Assembly (NCBI GenBank): GCA_943330235.2
Contig: CALQGY020000020.1
Span: 1-42,415 of the forward strand
DNA from: Candidatus Kuenenia stuttgartensis
GTDB lineage: Bacteria > Gemmatimonadota > Gemmatimonadetes > Gemmatimonadales > Gemmatimonadaceae
Direction of reading: 5' to 3'
Length of the DNA stretch: 42,415 bases
This document shows positions 4,889-42,415 of this stretch, piece after piece. The first letter of the stretch is position 1. Every line of letters starts with the position of its first letter. The position numbers and the translations under genes are program-made. The notes below the pieces were generated by a model that made no database searches, was not told the DNA's origin, and saw nothing but the letters and a program-made list of their open reading frames with translations.

Positions 4889-6163
4889 TTAGCGCTTCGG
4901 GTCAGGTGGTCGCTGAAACGCCGACGGAATGCTGTCCCACGGCGTGGCGCTCCGGGCCTTGGCAAACCCGAGGGCGTCGATGTGCTTGCTGAACGCCCCG
5001 TTGAACAGCGCCGACGACCCAGGCACGTTCCACAGATCCGCAGGCATGGTGGCGACGTGGAACTCCACCCGCAGGCCGGGCACGCCGTGGCTGACGGCGC
5101 GCGAGAGCAGATCCAGCAGTTCGAGCGTCTGCGGTTGATGCGCATAGAACAGCAGCACGTTTGTCCGCGCCACAATCTGTTTGATGCTGGCGGGGTCGAC
5201 CACGCGCAACGCCGGATACGCCATGAGATTCATGATCACATAGACTCGCACCGTCACGTCGCGCAGACCGCGAGCGGCCAGCGCGGCCGCGAGCCGTTGG
5301 TAGTCCGCGAAGTCCAGAAGCGGCAGCACGTTGGTGATGACACCGCCATCACCGTGCACATGCCCATCAATCACCACCGGCGGAAAGATCCCCGGAATGG
5401 CCGTCGCGGCCTTGAGCAGCTGCCGCGTGCGCGTCAGTCCGGCCGTCGTCGTGTCCAGCGCGTCGCTGAGCGACCAGGTGCGTCCGGTCCCGAGATCAAA
5501 ATCGGTCGTCCCCACGACAATCTGTCGATCGGCGTCGAACGCGCGCCGCAGATTGTCGCGAAAGGGGCCACTGACGCTTTCCGCGAGGGCCCGATCGAAT
5601 CGGGCGGTGTTCACCAACCCGCCGGTGCGACGCACGAGCGAGAACCAGTCGATGGACGGCGCCACGCGCTCTTCGGCGTGGAGATACAACTCGGTCAGCG
5701 TATCCATGGCGGCGGCCGTGCCCAGCATCACGTACGGCGCCTGCAGCGCTCCGGTGCTGATGCCGGTGACCAAATCGAACGCGGGCATGGGCGCATCGGG
5801 GCGTGACTGCCATCCGCGAAGAAAGCCCGTACCAAACGCCCCGTTTTGCCCGCCGCCGGACAGCATCAGCACATCCAGCGTGCCATCCCCACGGACAACC
5901 GCGCGCCGCACGAGGCGGGCGATGACGCTATCGCGCGTCGCGCGTTCCGTGCGGACGGCCGCGTCCGCATCCAGCGCGATCTGCGGCAACGTGGTGGGCG
6001 GTCGATGAATAACCGCACAGCCAGCGAGCATCGGCAGTCCGAATAGCGACAGTCCGAGCATCGGTAGCCGACGAAGCGGTAGCCGACGAAGCGGTAGCTG
6101 ACGAAGCGGTAGCCGACACATCGCGAGGCGCCGGAGCGCATGGGAGAACGGGAGCGGTGTCAT
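4889..6163 (-). CDS. Patatin-like phospholipase, predicted lipoprotein
   Basis: A 424-residue patatin-fold acyl hydrolase. Catalytic features are present: oxyanion loop SGGGQNG (102-108), nucleophile elbow GISTG (134-138, Ser136) and the DGG motif with the catalytic Asp (272-274). I chose the ATG at 6163 because AGGG lies upstream and a long hydrophobic signal follows; longer in-frame starts lie inside the RidA gene. The signal is odd: it contains RLPLR-type five-residue repeats encoded by a 15-bp tandem repeat (see repeat entry) and ends in a lipobox LAGC (Cys49). The enzyme is therefore probably membrane-anchored outside the cytoplasm and acts on phospholipid or another acyl ester. It lies 35 bp after the RidA-like gene. 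Confidence 0.87.
   Translation of the reverse strand: MTPLPFSHALRRLAMCRLPLRQLPLRRLPLRRLPMLGLSLFGLPMLAGCAVIHRPPTTLPQIALDADAAVRTERATRDSVIARLVRRAVVRGDGTLDVLMLSGGGQNGAFGTGFLRGWQSRPDAPMPAFDLVTGISTGALQAPYVMLGTAAAMDTLTELYLHAEERVAPSIDWFSLVRRTGGLVNTARFDRALAESVSGPFRDNLRRAFDADRQIVVGTTDFDLGTGRTWSLSDALDTTTAGLTRTRQLLKAATAIPGIFPPVVIDGHVHGDGGVITNVLPLLDFADYQRLAAALAARGLRDVTVRVYVIMNLMAYPALRVVDPASIKQIVARTNVLLFYAHQPQTLELLDLLSRAVSHGVPGLRVEFHVATMPADLWNVPGSSALFNGAFSKHIDALGFAKARSATPWDSIPSAFQRPPDPKR
6062..6117. repeat. 15-bp tandem repeat inside the patatin-like signal peptide
   Basis: Unit cggtagccgacgaag starts at 6062, 6077 and 6092 (one substitution in the third copy), with a partial fourth copy from 6107. More degenerate related sequence extends towards 6030. 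On the coding (minus) strand each unit encodes five residues of the RLPLR type, so copy-number change lengthens or shortens the signal peptide without a frameshift. Confidence 0.9.
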
Positions 6164-6198
6164 GAGAACCCTGAAGAGGCGACGACCGTTTCGGTGCG

Positions 6199-6663
6199 TC
6201 AGCGCCCGCCGGATGACGTCCCCACGACGGCAATGCACTCCACCTCGACACGCGCGTTCAATGCCAGCCCCGTTGCCCCGAGTGCGCTGCGCGCCGGCTT
6301 GTGTGTCGGAAAGAAGGTGGCGTACACGACGTTCACCGTGGGCCATTCCTTCATGTCGGCGAGAAACGCGGTGCACTTGACGACGCGGTCCATCGACGAT
6401 CCCGTCTTGGCGAGCACGTCGGCGATGTTGCGCATGGTCTGCCGGGTCTCCGCTTCCACGCCTCCCTTCACCAACGCCCCCGTACTATCCGTGCCAACCT
6501 GTCCGGCCAGATAGAGCATAGAGCCCACCCGCACGGCCGGCGAAAACGGATACACCGGCGGCCCGTATGGCGTGAGAAACGCAATCTCGGGCGGACGCGT
6601 GGTGGCGCACGCCGACAGCAGGAGCACGGCGGCACACCAGGTACTGCGACGTAGATGGGACAT
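6199..6663 (-). CDS. RidA/YjgF-family protein with lipoprotein signal
   Basis: A 154-residue protein. The C-terminal ~120 residues form a RidA (YjgF/YER057c) domain, recognisable by LYLAGQVGTDSTGALV, the ETRQTMRNIADVLAKTG helix and VVKCTAFLADM. RidA itself is a cytoplasmic enamine/imine deaminase. This member is unusual in having a signal peptide with a lipobox (LLLSACA), so it should be exported and lipid-anchored. The ATG at 6663 is chosen because it starts the signal; a GTG at 6675 is close by, and a GTG at 6726 would overlap the end of yaeQ. The conserved RidA arginine could not be placed confidently, so substrate and activity are open. Confidence 0.85.
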   Translation of the reverse strand: MSHLRRSTWCAAVLLLSACATTRPPEIAFLTPYGPPVYPFSPAVRVGSMLYLAGQVGTDSTGALVKGGVEAETRQTMRNIADVLAKTGSSMDRVVKCTAFLADMKEWPTVNVVYATFFPTHKPARSALGATGLALNARVEVECIAVVGTSSGGR

Positions 6664-19387: not shown

Positions 19388-19432
19388 TCGCGCGGTCAGT
19401 CACGGTTGGTGCCACGACCGCCTGCCGGTCCC

Positions 19433-19496
19433 GCGTGCCGCGACCGCGTGCCGCGACCGCGTGCCGCGACCGCGTGCCGCGACCGCGTGCCGCGGG
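19433..19496. repeat. 13-bp tandem repeat in the spacer after the ankyrin gene
   Basis: Unit gcgtgccgcgacc repeats exactly four times from 19433 to 19484, with a nearly complete fifth copy to about 19496. It abuts the hairpin at 19494-19517 and lies between the convergent ankyrin and creatininase-family genes. No coding role is evident. Confidence 0.92.
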
Positions 19497-34615: not shown

Positions 34616-34653
34616 CGCAGACGCGTGTACTGCCTGACGGGCTCGACGAAGGC

Positions 34654-34672
34654 GCTCAGTCATACTCTGAGC
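34654..34672. promoter_or_regulatory. Second inverted repeat upstream of ccoNO
   Basis: gctcag-tcatact-ctgagc, a perfect 6-7-6 inverted repeat ending 36 bp before the ccoNO start codon. Its place in the 5' region suits an operator or a leader hairpin. No known consensus matched. Confidence 0.38.
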
Positions 34673-34708
34673 ACTGTTTTCGGACATTCGACCCGTCAGA
34701 GGCTCCTG

Positions 34709-36973
34709 ATGCCCCTTGCCAACGGCCCCACGGCCGCGCAACCGCCGCACGCCGCGACCGGCGCGCAGCTCGATCGCTTTTCGTACGATGACGACATCGT
34801 CCGCAAGTTCCTGTTCGCTACCCTGATCTGGGGTGTGGTGGGCATGCTGGTGGGGATCTTGATTGCCCTGCAGCTCGCGAACCCGTTCTTCAACTTCAAT
34901 ACCCCCTGGCTGTCGTTCGGCCGTCTGCGACCGCTCCACACCAACGCGGTGATTTTCGCGTTCGCGGGCAATGCGTTCTTCACCGGCTGCTACTACTCCA
35001 CGCAGCGGCTGCTCAAGACGCGCATGCTGTCCGATGCGATGAGCCGGTTCCACTTCTGGGGGTGGCAGGCCATCATCGTCAGCGCCGCCCTCACGCTGCC
35101 CTTTGGCTACACGCAGGCCAAGGAATACGCCGAGCTGGAATGGCCGATTGATATCGCGATTGCCGTCGTATGGGTGGTGTTTGCCGTGAACTTTTTCGGC
35201 GCGCTGATCAAGCGGCGCGAACGGCACATCTACGTAGCGCTCTGGTTCTACATCGCCAGCATCGTCACCGTGGCCATTCTGCACATCTTCAACAACCTGT
35301 CCATTCCAGCAGGACCGCTCAAGAGCTACAGCATCTACGCCGGTGTGCAGGACGCGTTCATGCAGTGGTGGTACGGACACAACGCCGTGGCCTTCTTCCT
35401 CACCACGCCGTTCCTCGGCCTGATGTACTACTTCATGCCCAAGGCGGCTGAAGGGCCGGTATTCTCGTACAAGCTGTCCATTCTGCACTTCTGGTCGCTG
35501 GTGTTCATGTACATCTGGGCCGGCCCGCACCATCTGCACTACACGGCGCTGCCGGAGTGGGCGTCGACGGTGGGCATGCTGTTCTCGGTGATGTTGTGGG
35601 CGCCATCGTGGGGCGGCATGATCAACGGCCTGCTGACGTTGCGCGGCGCGTGGCACAAAGTGGCGCAGGATCCGATTCTCAAGTTCTTCGTGGTCGGCAT
35701 CACTGCGTACGGCATGTCCACGTTTGAAGGTCCCATGCTCTCCATCAAGAGCGTGAACGCCCTGGCGCACTACACCGACTGGATCATCGCCCACGTGCAC
35801 ACCGGTGCGCTGGGATGGAACGGCTTCATGACGTTCGGCATGATCTACTGGTTGCTGCCGCGGCTCTTCCAGACCGAGGTGTACAGCAAAAAGGCGATGG
35901 AGCTGCACTTCTGGATTGGCTCGGTGGGCATCGTGCTGTATGTGGTGGCCATCTACAGCGCCGGCGTGACGCAGGGGCTGATGTGGCGCGCCTTCGACGA
36001 AACGGGACGCCTCGCGTATCCGGATTTCATCGAGACCGTACTCAAGCTGATGCCGATGTACTGGATGCGCGTGGTGGGTGGCACGATGTACTTCACCGGC
36101 GTACTGATCTTCGGCTGGAATATTCTGATGACGTGGCGCCGTCGCCCGGCGACGTATCACGTGCCGGTGATTGAAGCCGCGCCACTCACCAAGACGTACG
36201 TACCGTCGCCGTCAACGCACCCCGCACCCGTGGGAATGTGGGCGCGCTTCACGTCGGCGCAGTGGCACCGGTCGTGGGAACGCGCGCCGATGCTCTTCAC
36301 GGTGCTGACCGTGTTGGCCGTCGTGGTGGCGTCGCTGTTCGAGATCATCCCGACGTTCCTCATCAAGTCCAACGTGCCCACCATCGCATCGGTGAAGCCG
36401 TACACGCCGCTGGAGTTGGCCGGGCGTGACATCTACATCGCCGAAGGGTGCTTCAACTGCCACTCGCAGATGATCCGCCCGTTCCGCTACGAGACCGAGC
36501 GCTTCGGCGAATACTCGAAGCCGGGTGAGTCGGTGTACGATCACCCGTTCCTGTGGGGCTCGCGCCGCATCGGTCCGGATCTGGCGCGCGAAGGTGGCAA
36601 GTTCCCCGACCTGTGGCATGTGCGGCACTTCGAGAATCCGCGTGCGGTCACGGCCAAGTCCATTATGCCATCATATGCGCAACTGCTCACGAATCCGATC
36701 GACTTCGAGCAGATCCAGTCGCGCGTGGATGTGATGGTGATGCTGGGCGTGCCCTACGGCGAAGCGGTAACGCGCGCGCCGGCCATGGCGCGTGAACAGG
36801 CCATGCAAATTGGTGCGGCCATCGCGCAGCAGGGCGGCCCGAAGGGGCTGGAAGACAAGCAGGTGGTCGCGCTCGTGGCGTACATGCAGCGCCTCGGTCG
36901 TGACATCAAGGCGCAGAAGACCGCAGTGATCGCCGCGCCGAGCAGTGCGGTCGCTATCGGAGGGACGCGCTGA
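34709..36973 (+). CDS. ccoNO: Cytochrome cbb3 oxidase, fused CcoN-CcoO subunits
   Basis: A 754-residue fusion. Residues ~1-505 are the 12-helix catalytic subunit CcoN: LHTNAVIFAF (low-spin haem His), WYGHNAVAFFLT and GPHHLHYT (CuB ligands) and AHVHTGALGWNG (haem b3 and b ligands). After a loop and another membrane helix (about 545-570), residues ~590-754 are CcoO, with haem c site CFNCH. The oxidase reduces O2 with high affinity and pumps protons. ATG 34709, after AGAGG, removes a spurious N-terminal extension. The stop overlaps the CcoQ-like start (TGATG). Fused CcoNO is known in several non-proteobacterial lineages. Confidence 0.95.
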   Translation: MPLANGPTAAQPPHAATGAQLDRFSYDDDIVRKFLFATLIWGVVGMLVGILIALQLANPFFNFNTPWLSFGRLRPLHTNAVIFAFAGNAFFTGCYYSTQRLLKTRMLSDAMSRFHFWGWQAIIVSAALTLPFGYTQAKEYAELEWPIDIAIAVVWVVFAVNFFGALIKRRERHIYVALWFYIASIVTVAILHIFNNLSIPAGPLKSYSIYAGVQDAFMQWWYGHNAVAFFLTTPFLGLMYYFMPKAAEGPVFSYKLSILHFWSLVFMYIWAGPHHLHYTALPEWASTVGMLFSVMLWAPSWGGMINGLLTLRGAWHKVAQDPILKFFVVGITAYGMSTFEGPMLSIKSVNALAHYTDWIIAHVHTGALGWNGFMTFGMIYWLLPRLFQTEVYSKKAMELHFWIGSVGIVLYVVAIYSAGVTQGLMWRAFDETGRLAYPDFIETVLKLMPMYWMRVVGGTMYFTGVLIFGWNILMTWRRRPATYHVPVIEAAPLTKTYVPSPSTHPAPVGMWARFTSAQWHRSWERAPMLFTVLTVLAVVVASLFEIIPTFLIKSNVPTIASVKPYTPLELAGRDIYIAEGCFNCHSQMIRPFRYETERFGEYSKPGESVYDHPFLWGSRRIGPDLAREGGKFPDLWHVRHFENPRAVTAKSIMPSYAQLLTNPIDFEQIQSRVDVMVMLGVPYGEAVTRAPAMAREQAMQIGAAIAQQGGPKGLEDKQVVALVAYMQRLGRDIKAQKTAVIAAPSSAVAIGGTR

Positions 36974-37167: not shown

Positions 37168-37752
37168 ATGGCGGACAACGACCCGAAGTCGCCCAATGAC
37201 CGGATCCACGACCGGATCATGGAGCACGAGTACGACGGCATTCAGGAGTACGACAATCCGATGCCGCGCTGGTGGCTGCTGACGTTTGGCGGCACCGTGA
37301 TTTTTGCCGGCCTCTATTTGCTCAACATCGGACCGGTGGGCAACGGCAAGGGGCGCGTGGCCGACTACGAGGCCAGCATGAAGGCTTTCGACGACGCACA
37401 TCCCGCGGCGGTGGGCGGACCGTCCATCGAGAAGCTGATGGCCATGGTGAAGGATCACGAAGCGGTGGATGAAGGCAAGGAAGTCTTCACCAAGAACTGC
37501 GTGGCCTGTCACGGCCCCGACGGCGGCGGATTGATCGGCCCCAACCTCACCGACAACTACTGGATTCACGGCGCCGCGCTGGACAGCGTCTACCTGACCG
37601 TCACGAACGGCGTGATCGAAAAGGGCATGCCGCCGTGGGGCAAAGTCTTGAAGCCCAAAGATGTCGAACGCGTGGTGGCATATGTCACGACGCTGCGGGG
37701 CACCCATCCCGCCAACCCGAAGGCTCCGCAAGGCGTCCCGGTTCAACCGTAA
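37168..37752 (+). CDS. ccoP: CcoP-like cytochrome c subunit, monohaem
   Basis: A 194-residue protein. The N-terminal HEYDGIQEYDNPMPRWW and the following membrane helix are diagnostic of CcoP, the electron-entry subunit of cbb3 oxidase. Only one haem c site is present, CVACH (111-115), with a likely axial Met in KGMPPWG. Classical CcoP is about 300 residues with two haems; here the second cytochrome domain is absent, without sign of a frameshift. Electrons must therefore enter through this single haem. Confidence 0.92.
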   Translation: MADNDPKSPNDRIHDRIMEHEYDGIQEYDNPMPRWWLLTFGGTVIFAGLYLLNIGPVGNGKGRVADYEASMKAFDDAHPAAVGGPSIEKLMAMVKDHEAVDEGKEVFTKNCVACHGPDGGGLIGPNLTDNYWIHGAALDSVYLTVTNGVIEKGMPPWGKVLKPKDVERVVAYVTTLRGTHPANPKAPQGVPVQP

Positions 37753-37779: not shown

Positions 37780-39201
37780 GTGAGTTCTACCGCACCACTG
37801 AGCAGCGGCCGCGTGCTGCCGACGATGAACGAAGACGGCTCGCGCCGCTGGATCCGCCCCAAACCGTCGCACGGCGCGTGGTGGCACCGGCGGCGCGTGG
37901 TCGCCTACGCACTGATGGCGCTGTTCTTCATCGCCCCGCACCTGCGGCTGTTCGGCAAGCCGATTTTTCTGATGGACTTGCCGCACCGTCAGTTCACCCT
38001 GATGGGCTACACGTTTCTCCCCACCGACACGCTGCTGTTCATGTTCGTCCTCGGCAGCGGTGTCATCGGCATCTTCCTGCTCACCGCGTTCTTCGGACGC
38101 GCGTGGTGCGGATGGGCATGTCCGCAAACGGTGTATCTCGAATTTCTCTTCCGCCCCATAGGCCGCTGGTTTGACGGCGGCTACACCGGCTCGCGCAATC
38201 TCGACAAGCAGCACGCGTGGTTTACGCCGCGGCGCATCGGCAAGTACATCACGTTCTTCCTGCTGTCGCTGTTCGTGTCGCATACGCTGCTGGCGTTCTT
38301 CGTCGGTACAGAGAACCTCTATCACTGGGTGCTCACGTCGCCGTCGCAGCATCCGTCGGCGTTCTTCTTCGTGGTGGTGTTCACCGGCATCGTCTGGTTC
38401 AACTTCACGTACTTCCGCGAGCAGACGTGTCTCATCGTCTGCCCGTACGGTCGCTGGCAGTCGGCGCTCATCGACCGGCAGTCGGTCATCGTTGCGTACG
38501 ACGCCACACGCGGCGAGCCGCGCGCGCATGGCGTGGCGCATCGTGATCCGGCCGCGGGCGATTGCATCGATTGTGGCGCGTGCGTACAGACGTGCCCCAC
38601 CGGGATCGATATCCGCAACGGCCTGCAGATGGAGTGCGTGCACTGCACGCAGTGCATCGACGCCTGCGATGATGTCATGACGCGCATCAACAAGCCAACA
38701 GGACTCATTCGCTACTCGTCGCAGGATGCGATGGCCGGCCAACCGCGCAAACTGCTGCGCCCGCGCACGGTGCTCTATCCGCTGGTGCTCGTGGTGCTGC
38801 TGACGAGCCTCGTCACGGCACTGGTCACCAAGGCGCCCGCTGACGTCACCGTGCTGCGCGGACTCGGCGCGCCGTTCACCGAAGAAGCCGACGGACGCAT
38901 CGCTAACCAGATTCGCATCAAGATTACCAATCGCCGCGGCACCAGTGAGCAGTACACGATGACGGTAAGCGGCCTCGCCGGCACGGATCTCAAACCGCAG
39001 GACATCACCGTCGTCGCGCCGGAAAATCCGCTCGTCGTCGCTGGCGGCGCCACGCGCCTCACCAGCGTGTTCATCCTCCTGCCGCGATCGGCCTTTACCG
39101 CCGGTGAGCGTCATGTGGATCTGGTATTCACGGATGGCCGCGGCTACGCCGAAACCGACGGGTACCGCCTGCTCGGTCCCGCCACTGGAGGGGCACGATG
39201 A
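37780..39201 (+). CDS. ccoG: Cbb3 oxidase assembly ferredoxin CcoG
   Basis: A 473-residue membrane protein (RdxA/FixG family) that reduces copper during cbb3 assembly. Features: several membrane helices in the first 200 residues, the CGWACPQTVYLEFLF and CIVCPYGRWQ motifs, and two 4Fe-4S clusters in CIDCGACVQTCPTG and CVHCTQCIDACDDVM. A C-terminal immunoglobulin-like periplasmic domain ends the protein. It starts with GTG (37780), 27 bp after ccoP, and overlaps ccoH. Confidence 0.95.
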   Translation: MSSTAPLSSGRVLPTMNEDGSRRWIRPKPSHGAWWHRRRVVAYALMALFFIAPHLRLFGKPIFLMDLPHRQFTLMGYTFLPTDTLLFMFVLGSGVIGIFLLTAFFGRAWCGWACPQTVYLEFLFRPIGRWFDGGYTGSRNLDKQHAWFTPRRIGKYITFFLLSLFVSHTLLAFFVGTENLYHWVLTSPSQHPSAFFFVVVFTGIVWFNFTYFREQTCLIVCPYGRWQSALIDRQSVIVAYDATRGEPRAHGVAHRDPAAGDCIDCGACVQTCPTGIDIRNGLQMECVHCTQCIDACDDVMTRINKPTGLIRYSSQDAMAGQPRKLLRPRTVLYPLVLVVLLTSLVTALVTKAPADVTVLRGLGAPFTEEADGRIANQIRIKITNRRGTSEQYTMTVSGLAGTDLKPQDITVVAPENPLVVAGGATRLTSVFILLPRSAFTAGERHVDLVFTDGRGYAETDGYRLLGPATGGAR

Positions 39202-39722
39202 AACCCGGCATGGGATGGCCCATTGGCGTTGGCGTGATTCTTGGCGTCACCGTCATCGCGAATCTGATCGTCATGCGCGTCGCGAATAACGACCCGTCGT
39301 TTGCCATCGAGCCAGATTACTACCAAAAGGCCGTAACCTTCGACTCTACCATCGCCGAAGCACGACGCAGCGCGACGCTGGGGTGGACAGCCACCGCCAC
39401 CATCGTGGCCGACGATCCAGCCGGACCGCCGACGGTCACGGTTACGCTCCTCGATGCGACACGGCAGCCAGTGGCCGGCGCTACCGTGTCCGTCAGCGCG
39501 CTCGCCAATGCGCGCGCGAACGATGTGCTCACGGCCACGCTGCACGAGACCGCACCGGGGCAGTATCAGGCGCCACTGGCCGCACGCTTCGTCGGGCAAT
39601 GGGAAGTGCGTGTCGATGCAGTGCGCCGTGACACACTCGGCGCCACGCAGCATTTTATCGGCAGCACCCGCACCGATGTGGCGCGCGGCACACGCGCACC
39701 ACAAGGCACCACCACGCCGTGA
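39198..39722 (+). CDS. ccoH: CcoH/FixH-like cbb3 assembly protein
   Basis: A 174-residue protein with one N-terminal membrane helix (about 7-28) followed by the FixH signature EPDYYQKAVTFDSTIAEARRSATLGW. The rest is a periplasmic beta-sandwich (TVTVTLLDATRQPVAGATVSV) that binds or positions assembly partners. It overlaps ccoG by 4 bp and the next gene's GTG by 4 bp. CcoH is needed for stable insertion of the oxidase subunits. Confidence 0.9.
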   Translation: MKPGMGWPIGVGVILGVTVIANLIVMRVANNDPSFAIEPDYYQKAVTFDSTIAEARRSATLGWTATATIVADDPAGPPTVTVTLLDATRQPVAGATVSVSALANARANDVLTATLHETAPGQYQAPLAARFVGQWEVRVDAVRRDTLGATQHFIGSTRTDVARGTRAPQGTTTP

Positions 39723-40471
39723 TCGGAGCCACGGGCGCCGCGCTGGGCATTCTGACCGCCAGCCTGCTCGGCAGCGTGCACTGCGCCGCCATGTGCGGCG
39801 GGTTCGTCTGCCTGTACGCGGGTGCGCCCACCCCGCAGCCCTCGTCGTGGCGCTTGCACGCGTATTACAACCTCGGCCGACTCTGCTCGTATCTCCTGCT
39901 TGGCGCCATCGCCGGTGCACTCGGTGCGGGCGTGACGAAGATGGGCGCGTGGGTTGGCATTGCGCATAGCGCGACCATCGTGGCCGGCGTGCTCATGATC
40001 GGCTGGGGCGTCAGCACCATCGCGGCGCACGCGGGACTGCGTCTCGGATTCTCCACCAGCGGCACTCCGGTGGCCTGGCAGCATTTCATCGGCGCCCTGC
40101 TGCACCGAGTGCGCGCACAGTCCGCCGCTACGCGCGCCGCACTCACGGGGCTGGGCACCACGCTCCTCCCCTGCGGATGGCTCTATGTATTTGTCGCCTC
40201 GGCCGCCGGCAGCGGCAGCGCGCTGCGTGGCATGCTGGTGATGACCATTTTCTGGGCGGGCACGGTGCCCGCGTTGGTGGCGGTAGGCGTCGGCGCACAA
40301 CGCGTGTTCGGACCCTTTCGGCGCCGGCTGCCTACGTTGGGCGCGCTCGCGGTGGTGGTGATGGGACTGCTGGCGGTCAGTGGTCGCTTGGTGATGTCGG
40401 CCGATGCGCGCATTGCCGCACCGGCCGAGGTGGGTGCCAGCGCGATGGGGGCGATGCATCATGAGCGCTGA
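39719..40471 (+). CDS. DsbD_2/SafE-like membrane protein of the cbb3 cluster
   Basis: A 250-residue protein with about six membrane helices. The first helix contains GSVHCAAMCGG and a later one LPCGWLY, cysteines shared with the DsbD-transmembrane/'sulfite exporter' family that regularly sits between ccoH and ccoI. It may carry copper or electrons across the membrane for oxidase assembly. Start is GTG at 39719 within the end of ccoH. The stop at 40469-40471 overlaps the ccoI start (40461), consistent with one operon. Confidence 0.85.
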   Translation: MIGATGAALGILTASLLGSVHCAAMCGGFVCLYAGAPTPQPSSWRLHAYYNLGRLCSYLLLGAIAGALGAGVTKMGAWVGIAHSATIVAGVLMIGWGVSTIAAHAGLRLGFSTSGTPVAWQHFIGALLHRVRAQSAATRAALTGLGTTLLPCGWLYVFVASAAGSGSALRGMLVMTIFWAGTVPALVAVGVGAQRVFGPFRRRLPTLGALAVVVMGLLAVSGRLVMSADARIAAPAEVGASAMGAMHHER

Positions 40472-42415
40472 GGCGCTGCGGTACGCGACGACGCACACTG
40501 AGGTGGTGTGTACCCACTGCGGCCTGCCGGTGCCCAGTGCGTTGATTGAGACCAACGCCGAGCGACAGTTCTGTTGCACTGGCTGCACGACCGCGTTTGC
40601 GATTTTGCGCGAGCACGGGTTGGAGCGGTACTACGAATTCCCCGAGAAGCGCGAGACGGCGGTACACACGAGCGGTCGCAGCTACGAGGAGTTCGATCAT
40701 CCGGCGTTCGCTGAGCGCTATGTGCGTGTGCAGCCTGATGGATTGTCGCGCATCGAGTTGTATCTCGAGGGCGTGCACTGCGCGTCGTGCGTGTGGCTGG
40801 TGGAGCGCATGCCCATGGTGGTACCCGGTGTGGTGCGCGCGGAGTTGCAGGTGCGTCGTGCGCTGGCGGTGCTGGAGTGGGACGCGTCCGCGGTGCCGCT
40901 GTCGACCGTGGCGCGCGCGTTGGATAGTCTGGGATATCCGCCGCATCCCTTCCGTGGTGTCGCGCGCGACGATATGCGGAAGCGTGAAGATCGCGCGATG
41001 CTGGTGCGCATCGGTATTGCCGGCGCCATCGCCATTAACGTGATGCTGGCGTCGTTGGCGCTGTACAGCGGCGAGTTGAATGGCATGGACGTGCAGTTCA
41101 CGCACTTCTTTCGCTGGATTTGCTTTGGGCTGATGGTGCCCACCTTCGCATGGCCGGGGCGCGTGTTCTTTACCGGCGCGTGGGCATCGCTGCGCACGCG
41201 GTCGTTGCATATGGATCTGCCCATCGCCATCGCGTTGGCCGTGGGGCTCATTCGCGGCGCCGTGAACACCGTCACCGATTCGGGGCCCGTGTATTTCGAC
41301 GGGCTCGCGCTGCTCATTTTTGCGCTGCTGGTGGGACGGTTTCTGCAGCAGCGCGGGCAGCGTCTGGCCACCGACGCGTCCGAGCTGTTGCACGCGCTCG
41401 CGCCCGTGTCGGCACGCATTGTGGAAGACGGCGTGACGCGCGATGTGCCCACCGACGCGCTGCTGCCCGGCATGGTGCTGGACGTGCGCGCGGGCGAGAG
41501 CTTTGCGGCCGACGGCACGGTGGTGGATGGGCGTTCGCAGGTGAATGCGGCGCTGCTCACCGGCGAATCGCGGCCCGTGCCGGTCATCACGGGCGAGCGC
41601 GTGTTTGCGGGGACGCACAACATCGAGGCGCCGCTCCGCGTGCGCGTGGAGGAGGCCGGCGAATCAAGCCGCATCGCCAAGTTGATGCAGCAGGTGGAAG
41701 AGAGCGCCCGTCGTCGTGCGCCGGTGGTACAGCTGGCGAACCGGATGGCCGGCATTTTTGTCGCGGTCGTGCTCACCGCGGCCGCGCTCACGTGGGTCAT
41801 CAAGACGCAGCGCCATGTGCCGTCGGCGCTGGATGATGCCCTCGCCCTGCTCATTGTCACCTGTCCCTGCGCGCTGGCGCTGGCCACACCGCTGGCCATT
41901 ACCGTGGCGGTCGGGCGCGCGGCCAATCGCGGCATGCTGATTAAGGGCGGCGACGCGCTGGAGCTGCTGGCCACCCAGGCCACGGTGGTGCTGGACAAGA
42001 CGGGCACCATTACCGAAGGCACCACCGCGCTGGCCACGTGGATTGGCCCCGACTGGGTGCAGCCGCTGGTGCTGGCGCTCGAGGAGGGCTCCTCGCACCC
42101 GTTGGCCGACGGCTTCCGGCGCGCCTGGCCCGCTGTGCGCGATGCCGCTTTGCGCGATGCCGCTTTGCGCGATGTCGCTTTGCGCGATGCCGCTGTACGC
42201 GATGCCGCTGTACGCGATGCCGCTGTACGCGACGCCGGAGTGCGCGACGGCGCAGGGGCCCGGCGCGTGACCGACGCGCGTCATGTGGCCGGCGGTGGGC
42301 TCGAGGGCGTGGTAGGCGGGCACCGGGTGCGGATCGGGTCGCCGCGGTTCGTGCGCGCGACGGTCACCGCGGTCGACCCCAACATTGCTGACGCACTGGC
42401 CGCGATGGACCCGAC
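40461..42415 (+). CDS. ccoI: Copper-transporting P-type ATPase CcoI (3' end outside window)
   Basis: At least 651 residues are visible and the frame runs off the window. The protein exports copper for cbb3 oxidase assembly. Motifs: N-terminal Cys-rich CTHC ... FCCTGC (about 17-42), heavy-metal-associated GVHCASC (104-110), TGES (367-370), the metal-binding CPC in membrane helix 6 (468-470), the phosphorylated DKTGT (512-516) and HP (546-547). The Cys-rich N-terminus is typical of FixI/CcoI. Just after HP, in the nucleotide-binding domain, an array of eight five-residue units (558-597, VRDAA/LRDAA type) is inserted. The start ATG 40461 overlaps the previous gene by 11 bp. Confidence 0.94.
   Translation, partial: MSAEALRYATTHTEVVCTHCGLPVPSALIETNAERQFCCTGCTTAFAILREHGLERYYEFPEKRETAVHTSGRSYEEFDHPAFAERYVRVQPDGLSRIELYLEGVHCASCVWLVERMPMVVPGVVRAELQVRRALAVLEWDASAVPLSTVARALDSLGYPPHPFRGVARDDMRKREDRAMLVRIGIAGAIAINVMLASLALYSGELNGMDVQFTHFFRWICFGLMVPTFAWPGRVFFTGAWASLRTRSLHMDLPIAIALAVGLIRGAVNTVTDSGPVYFDGLALLIFALLVGRFLQQRGQRLATDASELLHALAPVSARIVEDGVTRDVPTDALLPGMVLDVRAGESFAADGTVVDGRSQVNAALLTGESRPVPVITGERVFAGTHNIEAPLRVRVEEAGESSRIAKLMQQVEESARRRAPVVQLANRMAGIFVAVVLTAAALTWVIKTQRHVPSALDDALALLIVTCPCALALATPLAITVAVGRAANRGMLIKGGDALELLATQATVVLDKTGTITEGTTALATWIGPDWVQPLVLALEEGSSHPLADGFRRAWPAVRDAALRDAALRDVALRDAAVRDAAVRDAAVRDAGVRDGAGARRVTDARHVAGGGLEGVVGGHRVRIGSPRFVRATVTAVDPNIADALAAMDP
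42132..42251 (+). repeat. Eight-copy 15-bp tandem repeat inside ccoI
   Basis: Eight consecutive 15-bp units (consensus gctgtacgcgatgcc or gctttgcgcgatgcc) start at 42132 and run to 42251, the last two more diverged. Two sub-types form blocks (ttg-type copies 2-4, gta-type copies 5-7). All are in the ccoI frame and encode A-[VL]-R-D-[AV], 40 extra residues after the HP motif. Gains or losses of units keep the frame. Confidence 0.95.

Follow-up and report, generated by a model that had tools for sequence, protein, structure and literature searches.

The P1B-type ATPase CcoI encoded at the end of the window (contig C20, analyzed over its whole length of 42,415 nt) carries eight 15-bp units, arrayed in tandem and in frame, in the loop that links the conserved HP and GGG motifs of its nucleotide-binding domain (N-domain). 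This array is likely the outcome of a lineage-specific and probably recent minisatellite expansion, which would be mostly tolerated in a naturally variable loop. The contig belongs to a draft genome of 4.02 Mb in 223 contigs (91.6% complete).

The gene is identified as ccoI because of its neighbors in the cco operon, i.e., ccoNO, ccoP, ccoG, fixH and a gene for a DsbD_2-family protein upstream and ccoS downstream:

34625..36973, plus strand: fused ccoN-ccoO, 782 aa (NF011053, 1262.7 bits, cut-off 1080)
37168..37752, plus strand: ccoP (PF14715 FixP_N and PF13442; TIGR00782 at 113.7 bits, under the cut-off of 179.95)
37780..39201, plus strand: ccoG (TIGR02745, 425 bits, cut-off 316.7)
39198..39722, plus strand: FixH/CcoH-like protein (PF05751, E 2.1e-22; no NCBIfam match at E 1e-5)
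39719..40471, plus strand: membrane protein of the DsbD_2 family, with fixH before and ccoI after it (PF13386, E 7.3e-40; no NCBIfam match at E 1e-5)
40461..42413, plus strand: 5′ part of ccoI, 651 codons, truncated by the contig end
Contig C171, L007:4972-5724, minus strand: remainder of ccoI, joined via an exact 149-bp overlap

The next gene after ccoI on C171 is ccoS (TIGR00847, 52.9 bits, cut-off 28.35). Joining C20 with the reverse complement of C171 gives an 852-aa CcoI bearing TGE (367), CPC (468), DKTGT (512), HP (546, within SSHP at 544) and GDGVND (743) as well as GGG, hence the catalytic motifs are intact in the deduced protein. In the C20 fragment, the Pfam matches are PF12156 (N-terminal metal-binding region, E 2.3e-14), PF00403 (HMA, E 9.4e-6) and PF00122 (E1-E2 ATPase), and the C171 part matches a HAD hydrolase domain, while TIGR01511 and TIGR01525 score under their cut-offs against the fragment.

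The array and its surroundings are arranged as follows:

42096..42131, plus strand: HP motif (His 546) and following helix, HPLADGFRRAWP, immediately 5′ of the array
42132..42251, plus strand: array of eight 15-bp units, (A/G)(V/L)RD(A/V/G) x8, in the ccoI frame
42252..42266, plus strand: 15-bp array edge, encoding AGARR, which leads into the conserved sequence
42267..42415, plus strand: 149-bp overlap of C20 and C171, beginning 15 bp past the array and containing the GGG motif

TRF reports the repeat at 42130-42247 with a period of 15, 7.9 copies, 91% matches, no indels and a score of 166. Read in the ccoI frame from 42132, the assembled units are AVRDA, ALRDA, ALRDV, ALRDA, AVRDA, AVRDA, AVRDA and GVRDG. 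Repeat finder and reading frame thus agree with the first-pass annotation, which had described an in-frame minisatellite of eight 15-bp units in the CcoI nucleotide-binding domain; as its units are in tandem, in frame and of a length divisible by three, it is a coding minisatellite. Likewise, the two block-wise sub-types described there are evident, with GCTTTG starting units 2-4 and GCTGTA starting units 5-7. The array was also placed right after the HP motif: it does lie downstream of HP, but ten residues separate it from the dipeptide, so that it is situated beyond the helix that HP begins. Both HP and GGG contact ATP. Pairwise identity between units averages 0.84 (minimum 0.67), and the differences comprise synonymous as well as replacement changes. 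GC3 is 0.575 in the array versus 0.843 in the remaining gene fragment, and GCT accounts for seven array codons, whereas elsewhere in the fragment it is used for only 3 of 85 alanines. As far as codon usage can tell, both features fit copied DNA better than a peptide shaped by selection.

Three approximate dinucleotide shuffles of 400 kb from the same genome gave zero arrays of 9-20 bp with at least 3.5 copies and at least 85% matches. A two-unit pattern allowing up to three mismatches gave six overlapping matches in the genome, all within the CcoI array; since this pattern occurs nowhere else and the units of the other arrays listed differ, a mobile or dispersed repeat is rejected. Reading the DNA of 21 relatives by eye revealed no convincing source for a seed of the array. 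The VTDA codons just downstream in the gene itself loosely resemble a unit, albeit one codon out of register.

Within the genus, 29 other genomes were searched and 21 have a CcoI match at E ≤ 1e-60; the array is absent from all 21 sequences read. From HP to GGG, the distance is 65 residues in the array-bearing protein versus 26 in 20 of these relatives and 30 in the remaining one (GGG is replaced by GAG in one of the 21). Accordingly, the protein is a net 39 residues longer here than in most relatives of the genus, although the units themselves make up 40. Between RAWP and VTDA, array and edge together amount to 45 residues, compared to six in most relatives. The array is also absent from twelve loci of named relatives (MAGs labeled Gemmatimonadota, Gemmatimonadetes, Gemmatimonadaceae or Gemmatimonas sp.), ten measured by script and two, L045 and L047, judged by eye, several of the twelve being identical over the loop stretch to genus genomes already compared.

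At the family level, 179 genomes including the array-bearing one were searched, at least 120 of which have a match at E ≤ 1e-30. Among the matches listed, 70 are full-length (69 genomes, E ≤ 3.1e-53), and in these, the stretch from DKTGT to GDGVND spans 582-681 nt (median 618; 194-227 codons) versus 735 nt (245 codons) in the array-bearing gene. This set leaves out the latter, the partial matches of G023, G093 and G123, the weaker partial ones of G101, G125 and G139, and weaker full-length ones, which are probably mostly other P-type ATPases. Forty family loci were read in letters (two sets of 20, five of the second set partial), some of them overlapping the genus set, and none has the array. 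In the 36 loci measured by script, the loop spans 23-43 residues, with 24 in 28 loci, versus 63 by the same measure in the array-bearing protein. The other four (L056, L066, L237 and L238) were judged by eye; L237 is truncated where its contig begins, and in L238 (G093) the frame is lost ahead of the loop. In L238 (G093 C213, 9005-9544), the CcoI-like match starts at model position 33 although the contig continues, and this gene may be broken or misassembled before the loop, as the frame there is mismatched. The first-pass annotation knew of no CcoI with such an insert, and it is absent from the 21 genus relatives and 40 family loci read. The longest family loops, 43 residues in G159 and 33 in G157, show that this region has been lengthened in other genomes as well, though by fewer residues than in the array-bearing CcoI. 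At the G157 locus (L051, another genus of the family), a short DDAG-type repeat, DDAGHDAGDDAG, follows GSPSF in the N-domain's next variable loop.

For structure prediction with AlphaFold, a 140-residue fragment truncated by the contig end was submitted with 19 relatives as alignment. The model (pTM 0.40) has helices at residues 36-44 and, at the insert, 46-77, with blockwise pLDDT values of 88, 77 and 82 that drop to 59 and 47 toward the insert end. In the insert-free relative L010, used as control (pTM 0.71), a nine-residue coil (45-53) connects helix 36-44 with strand 54-59. Where the relative has this predicted coil, the array-bearing protein has a predicted helix, in a model of a truncated domain. 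Against the PDB, the L010 model matches ATP-binding domains of CopB and CopA (3skx, E 5e-16; 2b8e_B, E 4.3e-13), whereas the truncated array-bearing domain matches such folds weakly (best E 0.013, none at E ≤ 0.001). The 45 residues from RAWP to VTDA include 10 Arg, 8 Asp and seven Asp(i)-Arg(i+4) pairs, which, from composition and spacing, suits a charged helix. With the 140-residue fragment, the sole Pfam match is PF07382 (histone H1-like HC2; E 0.059, under cut-off), and this is taken as low complexity. Alignment and predicted structure are both in line with the earlier suggestion of a tolerated surface loop, in which the insert would presumably be exposed.

The array-bearing CcoI gene is found in a genome rich in similar repeats. 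Filtering for periods of 9-20 bp, at least 3.5 copies and at least 85% matches, 17 arrays were obtained from a first 400-kb sample (the first 20 kb of 20 contigs, leaving out the window) and 19 from a second one of the same size, with periods of 9-15 bp, mainly 12 and 15. Three genomes of the genus, G003, G001 and G002, have 1, 2 and 2 arrays in 400 kb each, and 16 further ones have 6 in 397.5 kb, with four of the six in one stretch. In total, 36 arrays in 800 kb, all outside the window, compare to 11 in 1,597.5 kb from 19 genomes (binomial p 1.6e-9 if arrays are independent), which points to a density several times that of the sister genomes; the sampled stretches of the array-bearing draft were drawn from 20 of its largest contigs and those of the relatives from mixed places. 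Arrays are clustered, with four of the first 17 in one stretch, and the p-values are therefore weaker than they appear. When a looser filter is applied (any period, TRF score ≥ 100), 33 arrays in 800 kb compare to 19 in 1,200 kb from G001-G003 (p 5e-4); from this smaller excess it follows that mainly short arrays are enriched. Scaled to 4.02 Mb, the 36 arrays extrapolate to about 180 in the full genome.

Sixteen of the 36 arrays (10 and 6 in the two samples) are in genes and 20 outside, at a called coding share of about 90% in the first sample, so arrays seem to be thinned out in genes, as far as a crude gene caller with some spurious-looking ORFs allows. A period divisible by three is found in 14 of the 16 arrays in genes and in 15 of the 20 outside, and these similar shares indicate no clear frame effect in the sample. 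Loss of mismatch repair is rejected as a cause, as mutS is present in two pieces (C120 and C215) together covering model positions 2-839.

Several individual arrays were inspected. The window itself contains three of the class; besides the one in ccoI, a 13-bp array at 19409-19494 (6.6 copies, 87% matches) is intergenic according to the crude gene caller, and a 15-bp array at 6062-6117 (3.7 copies, 95% matches) encodes RQLPL/RRLPL-type repeats at residues 87-105 of the minus-strand ORF 4892-6376. On C14, a 12-bp array encoding RGPL x4 (L084:14687-14739) stands directly before IKVLEFAGLGPAPF, which resembles the start of a CaiB-type CoA transferase, and native GPLRG-like codons may have seeded this array. 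On C9, a 12-bp array with DGAS repeats (L079:13287-13331) lies just 5′ of the conserved part of an aroE-like gene, presumably for a shikimate dehydrogenase-like enzyme, and most relatives align to a stretch located 3′ of it. In the protein encoded at C21:14495-17005, a variable stretch shows a net ASAPS expansion of nine residues compared to nine of ten usable relatives, and a larger one compared to the tenth (11 were aligned, of which L224, read in a wrong frame, was left out; identities of 42-46%, so some may be paralogues). For two further array proteins, searching the remaining 29 genomes of the genus gave no match at the thresholds chosen. In a same-genus genome, four short arrays with periods of 15, 9, 10 and 10 cluster at a contig start (L158, G014 C41, 1-1410).

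Taken together, a 15-bp unit would have been copied by slippage during replication or by unequal exchange among neighboring units, and block-wise copying could have produced the two sub-types. As the unit equals five codons, any change by whole units keeps the frame, and the array may have been retained in CcoI owing to this period and a permissive loop. The product would be a 45-residue, Ala/Arg/Asp-rich segment, predicted to be helical, leading from the HP-bearing helix to the strand before GGG, and the enzyme probably continues to supply copper to the cbb3 oxidase, with the insert being mostly tolerated and not selected. Because many other arrays of 9-15 bp are present, a genome-wide mutational tendency is a more likely cause than selection acting on CcoI, and a lineage-wide tendency to form short arrays is the most economical account. 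More tentatively, the species or its immediate lineage could have undergone, and may still be undergoing, a burst of 12-15 bp minisatellites across the genome, by which length-variable in-frame peptide repeats enter the loops and termini of proteins that are otherwise conserved, CcoI being a clear example of an internal insertion, although the odds are rather against so far-reaching a scenario.

An adaptive origin would imply a charged helical arm of variable length by the ATP site that adjusts turnover or serves as a docking site for a partner, e.g., CcoS or a copper chaperone. The position between two conserved motifs and the periodic charge with its regular-looking i,i+4 spacing agree with this idea, as does the variability of P1B N-domains, for which loop length and number of helices are given as the main differences in passages of PMC5089723, where an HMA8 insertion is also suggested to touch the P-domain. 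Yet 0 of the 21 genus relatives read have the insert, its codons resemble copied DNA, and arrays similar in kind but unrelated in sequence occur in other genes and in intergenic stretches, making an adaptive role unlikely. The tuning of ATPase activity considered in the first-pass annotation is unsupported: nothing found favors it, and many such arrays occur elsewhere in the genome. Even less probable is that the eight pentads form two coils of a right-handed pentapeptide-repeat beta-helix grafted into the N-domain. Read as A-A-L-R-D, period and Ala, Leu and Arg positions resemble those of pentapeptide repeats, and PF13599 is the sole Pfam match of the array alone; this match, however, has an E of 0.32 and 11.5 bits versus a cut-off of 38, PF00805 is absent at E ≤ 10 in the same search, the second position is mostly Ala instead of Asp or Asn, and five of the eight units have Val instead of Leu. 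With a sub-cut-off match and AlphaFold predicting helix and not strands, the beta-helix was rejected.

The proximity of the contig end, 164 bp past the array, with C171 beginning 15 bp past it, raises the question of whether short-read assembly created the array or its length at this junction. Arrays with a score of at least 60 were found within 400 bp of 5 of 44 contig ends, this one included, where 2.7 were expected. On the other hand, the array's length of 120 bp falls short of the 149 bp that overlap exactly at either end of C20, its units are imperfect, conserved CcoI sequence continues in frame on both flanks, and in the 800-kb sample, 35 of the 36 further arrays of the class lie over 4 kb away from a contig end. 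The other end of C20 shares its 149 bases with C161; being exact at both ends, this number is probably the word length of the assembler. In a comparison of the 44 ends of 22 of the 223 contigs, solely C20 and C171 overlap each other. A contig break due to copy-number polymorphism is unsupported, as the C161 overlap of equal size requires no polymorphism. Artefactual creation of array or array length is given a very small chance; that the array as such arose in assembly is unlikely, its exact copy number being that of the assembled contig.

Considered by itself, the CcoI array would be a case of a studied pump tolerating a longer loop. If confirmed, the excess of arrays would offer a way to ask what raises minisatellite formation in bacteria and how conserved enzymes absorb the resulting repeats. 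Among the literature matches listed, titles and abstract openings mention neither a repeat insert in CcoI nor an array excess in this group, and the main text of the CcoI paper PMC8475189 contains neither "insertion" nor "repeat". Minisatellites are stated to be underrepresented in prokaryotic genomes in an excerpt of PMC3324548.

Compared to CcoI/FixI proteins, i.e., CopA2-type P1B ATPases for cbb3 oxidase assembly, domains, motifs and the neighborhood of ccoNO, ccoP, ccoG and fixH with ccoS are the same here, and the protein differs by 39 extra residues in the loop between HP helix and GGG strand that are absent from the relatives examined. In-frame minisatellites and VNTRs such as those of the staphylococcal Ser-Asp surface proteins, as outlined in part of PMC3324548, share with the CcoI array a short unit that is a multiple of three and the presence of unit variants; unlike these adhesin repeats, the array is located inside a conserved pump, in its catalytic cytoplasmic domain, and is known from one genome. 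With the loop insertions in the N-domains of HMA6, HMA8 and the Menkes and Wilson proteins, CcoI has in common that the core sheet is kept and loop lengths vary, whereas the HMA insertions are situated at beta1-alpha1 and alpha4-beta5 and, in the passages of PMC5089723 describing them, are mentioned without any tandem repeat, in contrast to the array in CcoI.
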